A stretch of 51,240 bases of DNA from Bacteroidota bacterium (GTDB lineage: Bacteria; Bacteroidota; Bacteroidia; Palsa-948): the NCBI GenBank assembly GCA_023251675.1, contig JAHEYJ010000006.1, positions 1 through 51,240 on the forward strand, read 5' to 3'. The number at the start of each line of letters is the position of its first letter. Positions within the stretch are counted from its first letter, which is position 1. The notes under the pieces are model-generated. The model ran no database searches. It saw nothing but the letters and a program-made list of their open reading frames with translations, and was not told the DNA's origin. The translations under genes were made by a program, and so were the position numbers. Below, one piece after another: positions 1-1,362 of this stretch.

Positions 1-280
1 AAAAACGGTCCTTGAAAGTACCGGGTTCAGATTCATCGGCGTTGACCACGAGGTGACGAGGCACTCCGGGAGGTTTTGCAATGAAACTCCATTTCATTCC
101 GGCAGGGAATCCTGCTCCTCCTCTTCCGCGAAGGCCTGATTTTTTTACTTCCTCAACCAGTTCTTCGGGTTTCATCTTCAGCGCTTTTTCTATAGCCGTA
201 TAACCGCCATTGGCCTTGTAACCCGCCAGCGTGTTGATGCCTTCCTTGTCGAGATCGTTTATGAGCAGTTGTCTTCCCAT
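1..280 (-). CDS. nuoF: NADH-quinone oxidoreductase subunit NuoF, N-terminal part (runs off window start)
   Basis: Minus-strand translation from ATG at 280: [66 protein letters not shown]..., with the Nuo[15 protein letters not shown] motif; downstream of nuoE. Confidence 0.9.
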
Positions 281-281
281 T

Positions 282-762
282 TAGCCACAGATTACACTAA
301 TTCTCACTGATTATAAAATTATACGTTTATATTTTAAAGAATTTTCTCCAAAATTTATTAATACTCCTAATTTCAATTTAGAAACTGCAAGATAGTTTAT
401 CACTTGACGATAATGATCTTCAAGCGCTCCTTCTTGTGCTTTGACTTCTAAAATAATTCTTTCATCAATTACGAAATCGGCAAAATAATAATGAGGCAAT
501 ATGGTTCCTTTATATTGAATCTCGTATTTTTTCTCTCTTTCAAATGAAAGGTTTTTAGCTTTTAGTTCATATTCAATAGCATCTTTATAGACAACTTCTG
601 ATAAACCCCTTCCCAGTATTTTGTGAATCTCCATGCATAATCCTATTATTTGAAATGATTCTTCCTGAAAAGGATATTTATCCTTTGTGAAATATATTTC
701 TTGTTTATCCTGTAATTCCAGTTCCATGTCTTAATCTGTGCTTTCTGTGTAATCTGTGGCTA
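282..762. mobile_element. Putative mobile cassette: GxxExxY ORF bounded by perfect 16-bp inverted repeats
   Basis: tagccacagattacac at 282-297 and its exact reverse complement gtgtaatctgtggcta at 747-762, flanking a single ORF; inserted between nuoE and nuoF. Confidence 0.55.
311..727 (-). CDS. GxxExxY family protein (PD-(D/E)XK nuclease-like)
   Basis: 138 aa; GRGLSEVVYKDAIEYEL contains GxxExxY; ADFVIDERIILEVKA has a D...ExK arrangement. Confidence 0.85.
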   Translation of the reverse strand: MELELQDKQEIYFTKDKYPFQEESFQIIGLCMEIHKILGRGLSEVVYKDAIEYELKAKNLSFEREKKYEIQYKGTILPHYYFADFVIDERIILEVKAQEGALEDHYRQVINYLAVSKLKLGVLINFGENSLKYKRIIL

Positions 763-1362
763 TTGCTTGATATCCGAATGATTGGTAACTCGTTCTTTTC
801 TCCAGTGTGTTACGACTTCGCCTTTATTTTTGTAATTGTCTAATATTTTTTCAGTCTTTTCTAAAGTCAGATTTTCATGATAGGTCTCGCCGATCTGCAT
901 CATGGGAGCGGTTCCGCAGGAAGCGAGGCACTCAACCGTTTTCAGTGTGAACATTCCGTCCGGCGTGGTCTCACCTTCTTTGATGCCGAGTTTTTTCTCG
1001 ATGAACTTCACCAGGTCTTCTGCGCCCATCAGCCAGCACGGCCCGGTTCTGCAAACTTCAATCACGCATTTGCCGACCGGTTTGAGGTTAAACATGGAAT
1101 AAAAGGAAGCCACTTCATACACTTCGATCGGTTGTATCTTCAGCAGCATGGCAACATAATCCATCACCTGGGGACTGAGCCATCCGTCGAATTCAGTTTG
1201 AGCGATATGGAGTAGCGGAAGTAATGCAGATTTCTGCTTTCCCTCCGGATAGCGCTTCATGATCTTATGCGCGAGGGTAAGCGCTTCGTCGGAGAACCTG
1301 ACTGCTGTCAGGCCGGTTTTTATTTGTTTGCTTGTCACAAATTTTCTGTGTGATGACGGCAA
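760..1362 (-). CDS. nuoE: NADH-quinone oxidoreductase subunit NuoE ([2Fe-2S] 24 kDa family)
   Basis: EVASFYSMFNLKPVGKCVIEVCRTGPCWLMGAEDL...VECLASCGTAPMMQI, four-Cys 2Fe-2S pattern. Confidence 0.92.
   Translation of the reverse strand: MPSSHRKFVTSKQIKTGLTAVRFSDEALTLAHKIMKRYPEGKQKSALLPLLHIAQTEFDGWLSPQVMDYVAMLLKIQPIEVYEVASFYSMFNLKPVGKCVIEVCRTGPCWLMGAEDLVKFIEKKLGIKEGETTPDGMFTLKTVECLASCGTAPMMQIGETYHENLTLEKTEKILDNYKNKGEVVTHWRKERVTNHSDIKQ

Follow-up and report, generated by a model that had tools for sequence, protein, structure and literature searches.

A GxxExxY gene between inverted word arrays at the nuoE–nuoF junction suggests an almost undescribed kind of mobile element in Bacteroidota

The GxxExxY locus between nuoE and nuoF

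The window, a stretch of 51,240 nucleotides of a Bacteroidota bacterium contig (JAHEYJ010000006.1), opens with nuoF, a GxxExxY gene and nuoE, all three read in the same direction, with nuoF starting at 280 on the minus strand. The GxxExxY gene lies between two inverted arms, together forming a cassette of approximately 480 bp. The features of the locus are as follows:

282 to 762, minus strand: whole GxxExxY cassette, recognised by its 16-bp perfect inverted repeat and by empty junctions in congeners
747 to 762, minus strand: 5' arm on the nuoE side, TAGCCACAGATTACAC, whose TAG is the nuoE stop codon
734 to 740, minus strand: second CACAGAT word of the 5' arm (the first is at 752-758; the word is defined as YRCNRAK)
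282 to 297, plus strand: 3' arm on the nuoF side, exact reverse complement of the 5' arm
286 to 311, plus strand: three-word array of the 3' arm (CACAGAT 286-292, CACTAAT 295-301, CACTGAT 305-311)
311 to 727, minus strand: GxxExxY protein of 138 aa, a predicted Cas4/RecB-like PD-(D/E)XK nuclease (TIGR04256, PF13366)
760 to 1362, minus strand: nuoE, upstream neighbour (TIGR01958, NF005725)
2 to 280, minus strand: nuoF, downstream neighbour, cut by the window end (TIGR01959)

A first-pass annotation had described a perfect 16-bp inverted repeat surrounding one GxxExxY ORF at this junction, and this was confirmed: TAGCCACAGATTACAC is found at 282-297 and its exact reverse complement at 747-762, with a single ORF between them. 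When both flanks were shuffled (1000 shuffles), the longest perfect arm obtained was 10 bp, and the observed 16-bp match is thus not a chance occurrence. In gene orientation, the cassette ends read ...AAGCAATAGCCACAG and ...CTGTGGCTAAATGGGA. The first three bases of the nuoE-side arm constitute the nuoE TAG stop codon and a single A separates the nuoF-side arm from the nuoF ATG, in agreement with the earlier reading, as is the presence of a second word inward on each side, with CACAGAT/CACTAAT/CACTGAT words located inside both arms. If the conserved termini GCCAC...GTGGC mark its ends, the element proper would extend from approximately 284 to 760. The exact 16-mer occurs in the genome as this pair only (282-297 and 747-762). 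Apart from this pair, one solo copy with a single mismatch is located on contig C27 (L003, G000:C27:19121-19136), between two genes and with neither an ORF nor a second arm.

Occupied and empty junctions in relatives

A comparison of 29 relatives with a resolved nuoE–nuoF junction revealed the GxxExxY cassette in only two, the window genome and the congener G006; in the remainder, the two genes overlap or are separated by a short spacer or another insert. The junction is empty in many relatives, with a gap of 2-3 nt or a TAATG overlap. The G004 junction is empty, with overlapping stop and start codons (CAATAATGAGC); the nuoE of this congener is the most similar to that of the window genome (89% identity, with 79% for G006). 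Both G055 and G009 similarly have a nuoE/nuoF overlap and no cassette. The proposal of an inserted unit is supported by these empty sites, and conservation of the gene at this locus across distant relatives was not found. The empty junction of G023 reads CAATAAATGGG; compared with this form, the window sequence, CAATA-[GCCAC...GTGGC]-TAAATGGG, would fit a 2-bp TA duplication. In the G006 copy of the shared cassette (L030, G006:C42), the probable nuoF start codon is a GTG inside the right arm. Other material found between nuoE and nuoF includes ORF-less palindromes in G002 and G011 and arm-like repeats in G003. From reading the sequence, we take the G050 insert to be an S23-type cassette, and that of G031 (L054, G031:C20) to be an MNT/HEPN-like gene pair.

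Six further GxxExxY junctions of the window genome were traced using a joined query of upstream gene ends, with gene names that we assigned by reading the proteins and that are thus presumptive:

DeoC-ALDH junction: empty in G001 and G006
aminotransferase-amidase junction: empty in G001 and G006, genes overlapping
SHMT-AlgH junction: empty in G001, genes overlapping
ABC-F-membrane protein junction: empty in G006, genes overlapping
PaaI-thiolase junction: empty in G001 and G006
SDR-amidohydrolase junction: empty in G001 and G004

Each of the seven junctions tested (nuoE–nuoF and these six) is hence found empty in one congener or more; for the FAD-2Fe2S junction, no usable orthologue was found. 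Congeners also carry other inserts at these sites: an S23-type cassette at aminotransferase-amidase in G005, a GxxExxY cassette with another word class in G004 at both DeoC-ALDH and PaaI-thiolase, and ORF-less repeats or palindromes at PaaI-thiolase (G002, G003) and SHMT-AlgH (G004, G005). The ORF-less palindrome of G003 at PaaI-thiolase (L231, G003:C228) has its arms in reverse order (CTCTGTG...CACAGAG). At the same junction in G004 (L249, G004:C88:56000-59000), a PaaI-type thioesterase is fused in frame to a GxxExxY cassette, giving a 304-aa frame. At the filled SHMT-AlgH site, the left side has ATGGTAAAGTT and the right side ATGGTAAAATT, whereas the empty site has one copy, indicating that the gene overlap is duplicated. 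No target-site duplication of fixed length was found at the junctions, the candidates being TA (2 bp) at nuoE–nuoF and 11 nt at SHMT/AlgH.

Arm words and the GxxExxY protein

The first-pass annotation had raised the possibility that the terminal repeat recurs around other GxxExxY genes. Inverted repeats are indeed present around most of the other GxxExxY genes in the window genome, but each has its own sequence and the same 16-mer is absent; neither a subfamily-specific arm sequence, nor spaced word arrays, nor recurrence across the phylum had been foreseen. Arms were scored by local alignment of the upstream flank against the reverse complement of the downstream flank, using a cut-off of at least 26. 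In the phylum sample, 98 of 145 GxxExxY loci reached this score, as opposed to 3 of 204 control genes and 4% of mismatched flank pairs, while about a fifth of GxxExxY genes are without clear arms. GxxExxY genes are present in half of the sampled genomes of the phylum.

The arms are arrays of the 7-nt word YRCNRAK, repeated every 8-10 nt. Arrays of at least three words occur 4 times in 291 kb, with none in the control. The word class is the same in both arms of 86 of 91 cassettes (20 expected), and word direction relative to the ORF agrees between arms in 87 of 92. Between the arms, word positions match at 87-100%, the free position in the word at 66% and spacers at about 71-79%, a contrast that is in part built in by defining the word on one arm of aligned pairs; the pattern is as for spaced binding sites rather than a continuous stem. 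Where the arms differ by transitions, G-U compatible changes are not favoured (132 compatible and 151 not, p 0.28). With neighbours assigned by longest ORF, 153 cassettes are codirectional with both neighbours and 7 antisense to both, where random orientation would give equal numbers. A solo arm pair with CGCTAAG-type words and no ORF, possibly a cassette remnant, was observed at L197:5799-5859, and L110 (G146:C4) has two neighbouring GxxExxY genes whose arms are not clear. At L246 (G000:C241:9500-13500), a GxxExxY domain is fused in frame to what we read as dxr, the link consisting of five tandem repeats that encode TTQTDANAAKKDELI-like units and have arm words inside them.

The arm word follows the protein. 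Mapped on a tree of 91 proteins, which has few columns and is incompletely resolved, the word class requires 25 changes compared with 53.5 when shuffled (0 of 200 shuffles as low), and the main split of the tree separates words ending in AG (40 of 43) from words ending in AT (45 of 48). The window's subfamily was sampled at 80 named loci representing 47 independent sites; the ends gCCACRRATTCACRRATT are conserved at most of these sites, and 38 of the 47 have an inverted-repeat score of at least 26. At one site, presumably tsaC-cca from our reading of the proteins, 27 Flavobacteriaceae-type loci hold the cassette, and in most of them the two arms change together (CCGCAAATTCGCAAATT, CCGCAGATTCGCAGATT, CCACGAATTCACGAAT). 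Three of the tsaC-cca loci (L302, L306 and L296) have nested arms, with an outer, older CCACGAATT-type pair around an inner, newer CCGCARATT-type pair, so that repeated insertion at the same place is also possible.

The window protein matches TIGR04256 (E 1.4e-37, 128.6 bits, curated cut-off 35) and PF13366 (PDDEXK_3; E 7e-34, 117.1 bits, cut-off 22). An AlphaFold model (pLDDT 90.5) was compared with known structures using Foldseek, giving chains of SSO0001 (PDB 4IC1), which we take to be a Cas4, as top matches (E 1.2e-5, TMq 0.54), followed by RecE and AddAB. A Holliday-junction resolvase was considered as the closest fold and rejected, as none is among the 50 matches listed and Cas4/RecB-like proteins come first. 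A sequence search for relatives of solved structure found none. The PD-(D/E)XK residues E44, D84, E94 and K96 are present in 225-227 of 228 sequences, and most GxxExxY sequences have a QxxxY motif after the active-site residues. The four-cysteine iron-sulphur site is absent, GxxExxY proteins having a median of 2 Cys and the window protein one. The prediction for the GxxExxY protein is thus a nuclease of Cas4/RecB-like type whose active site is intact. Comparison of the window gene with that of G006 gives dN 0.086 and dS 1.59, the latter saturated, which indicates purifying selection. Profile searches of the cassette matched GxxExxY/PF13366 only, with no known transposase or recombinase. Searches with the GxxExxY protein gave no match in a phage collection and, in plasmids, distant homologues only (<60% identity).

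Related systems and a possible mechanism

A similar arrangement is found for the PF05635 (S23/four-helix-bundle) genes of the genus, with inverted arms in 26 of 34 compared with 3% of mismatched pairs. Like the GxxExxY cassettes, the S23 cassettes are located in protein operons, have inverted arms and copy-specific repeats, and use the same junctions, namely nuoE–nuoF (G050) and aminotransferase-amidase (G005). They differ in encoding an unrelated protein and in having arms built from 7-nt tandem repeats, with a 7-nt periodicity (0.61 at lag 7, 0.59 at lag 14) as opposed to ~9 for GxxExxY. Examples are L017-L026 and L330-L355, where S23/four-helix-bundle genes lie between inverted arms of 7-nt tandem repeats. 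In Coxiella burnetii, the 23S intervening sequence has an S23p ORF together with heptamer repeats and a terminal stem of 28 bp, and RNase III cleaves it (PMC4990558). Such 23S rRNA intervening sequences (PF05635) resemble the cassette in their size (~430-480 nt), single small ORF and terminal inverted repeats, in the short tandem repeats of their 5' arm (GxxExxY arms are also repeat-built), and in being called selfish with no mobility enzyme known (PMC4990558). They are, however, located inside rRNA and excised by RNase III, with a four-helix-bundle ORF and heptamers (PMC4990558), whereas the GxxExxY cassette is found in protein operons, encodes a predicted PD-(D/E)XK nuclease and has a period of ~9. 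The window ORF is not S23/PF05635, as only PF13366 matches. GxxExxY cassettes look like a nuclease-bearing counterpart of the 23S intervening sequences in protein operons.

Free-standing homing endonuclease genes likewise consist of a lone nuclease gene between host genes. Unlike the single site of a homing endonuclease, one GxxExxY subfamily occupies at least 47 unrelated sites, and to our knowledge inverted word-array arms are not a feature of free-standing homing endonucleases. With the Cas4/RecB-family nucleases (SSO0001, AddAB, RecE), the GxxExxY protein shares the predicted fold and the D, ExK and QxxxY motifs; unlike Cas4, it is without the four-cysteine iron-sulphur site, and no CRISPR genes adjoin it at the window locus. 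Insertion sequences and MITEs resemble the cassette in their conserved terminal inverted repeats, empty sites, solo ends and ORF-less hairpins. In contrast to insertion sequences, the cassette has no known transposase, ends made of spaced word arrays and, at the junctions compared, no apparent target duplication of consistent length; unlike a MITE, which has no coding sequence, it has a conserved ORF, with ORF-less hairpins existing elsewhere. Intergenic heptanucleotide repeats of Beggiatoaceae, such as TAACTGA, form arrays by start codons and are suspected to be mobile, but are direct repeats and are not reported to be tied there to a nuclease gene or inverted arms (PMC4679880). In the literature searched, mostly open-access journals without preprints, this cassette class was not described.

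Comparison shows presence and absence of the cassette at the same junction in congeners, and the class at many unrelated junctions. The reading that we consider somewhat probable is that of a mobile cassette of minimal make-up, probably selfish, the ends of which are recognised by the predicted nuclease that it encodes. Its main rival, albeit an unlikely one, has the arms act at the RNA level: a stem in the mRNA could bring the nuoE stop beside the nuoF start, or be cut by RNase III as in 23S intervening sequences, so that the insert is tolerated in the transcript, and the protein may act on the RNA hairpin. This would account for arms that adjoin stop and start codons, for the sense orientation that is almost always seen and for the co-change of the arms at tsaC-cca; the Coxiella element, a substrate of RNase III, is laid out in the same way (PMC4990558). 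Selection on the arms for an RNA stem was nevertheless rejected, there being no G-U asymmetry: G-U compatible differences between arms are not in excess. Word positions are moreover kept while spacers and the free word position are poorly matched, and a plain stem would not need the word to go with the protein tree, as it does.

We regard as more doubtful the view that the arms are hairpin repeats mobilised by some unrelated enzyme from another locus, the GxxExxY gene being a passenger. Gene-less hairpins and single arms do exist (L197:5799-5859, L231 and contig C27) and S23 genes are found in a similar frame, but the word carried by the arms changes along with the protein phylogeny, and the period differs between the two protein families (9 versus 7 nt), where a shared outside enzyme would predict shared ends. 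It appears quite improbable that we are dealing with an ordinary autoregulated host or defence gene, spread by horizontal transfer and recombination, whose arms are operators for its own product; the purifying selection, the long retention at one Flavobacteriaceae site and the words near the start codon would agree with this, yet against it stand the second matched array downstream of the gene, beside the start codon of the neighbour, and the scattered occurrence of the cassette at numerous junctions, unrelated to one another, within housekeeping operons.

For the mobile cassette, the existence of the element and its class are well supported by the sequence comparisons. From the co-variation of word and protein we strongly infer that the nuclease recognises the arm words; that it drives cassette insertion is a weaker proposal. 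The nuclease would bind the word arrays at both cassette ends, and would cut at the arms, perhaps extruded as hairpins, and at tight stop/start junctions, following which host repair might copy or paste the cassette into the cut junction. Both neighbours would stay intact because an arm provides a stop or start codon where needed, and dependence of the nuclease gene on transcription from the host operon would maintain the sense orientation. The retention at tsaC-cca with matched arms, together with purifying selection, also fits a useful host gene and speaks against a mobile reading. The lack of a known transposase or recombinase, the candidate target duplications of differing length and the fifth or so of GxxExxY genes without clear arms weigh against it as well.

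These observations suggest that the GxxExxY cassette is an almost undescribed kind of mobile element. A broader reading, which we put forward tentatively and hold short of probable, is that of a categorically new class of mobile element. Its members would be nuclease-only cassettes that recognise arrays of spaced words at their ends, insert between co-transcribed genes where stop and start lie close together, and diversify in step with those words. The 23S intervening sequences would then form a branch of a larger family of elements, the common cassette design being served by small proteins unrelated to one another (GxxExxY, S23), with a repeat period particular to each. GxxExxY genes are annotated without function, and the name is rarely mentioned in the literature searched. 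If the mobile reading is true, these genes would be mobile cassettes that reshape operons while leaving the neighbours unbroken, and the match between protein and word would represent a natural recognition code for a small nuclease. The 23S rRNA intervening sequences, so far unexplained, would then gain a wider context.
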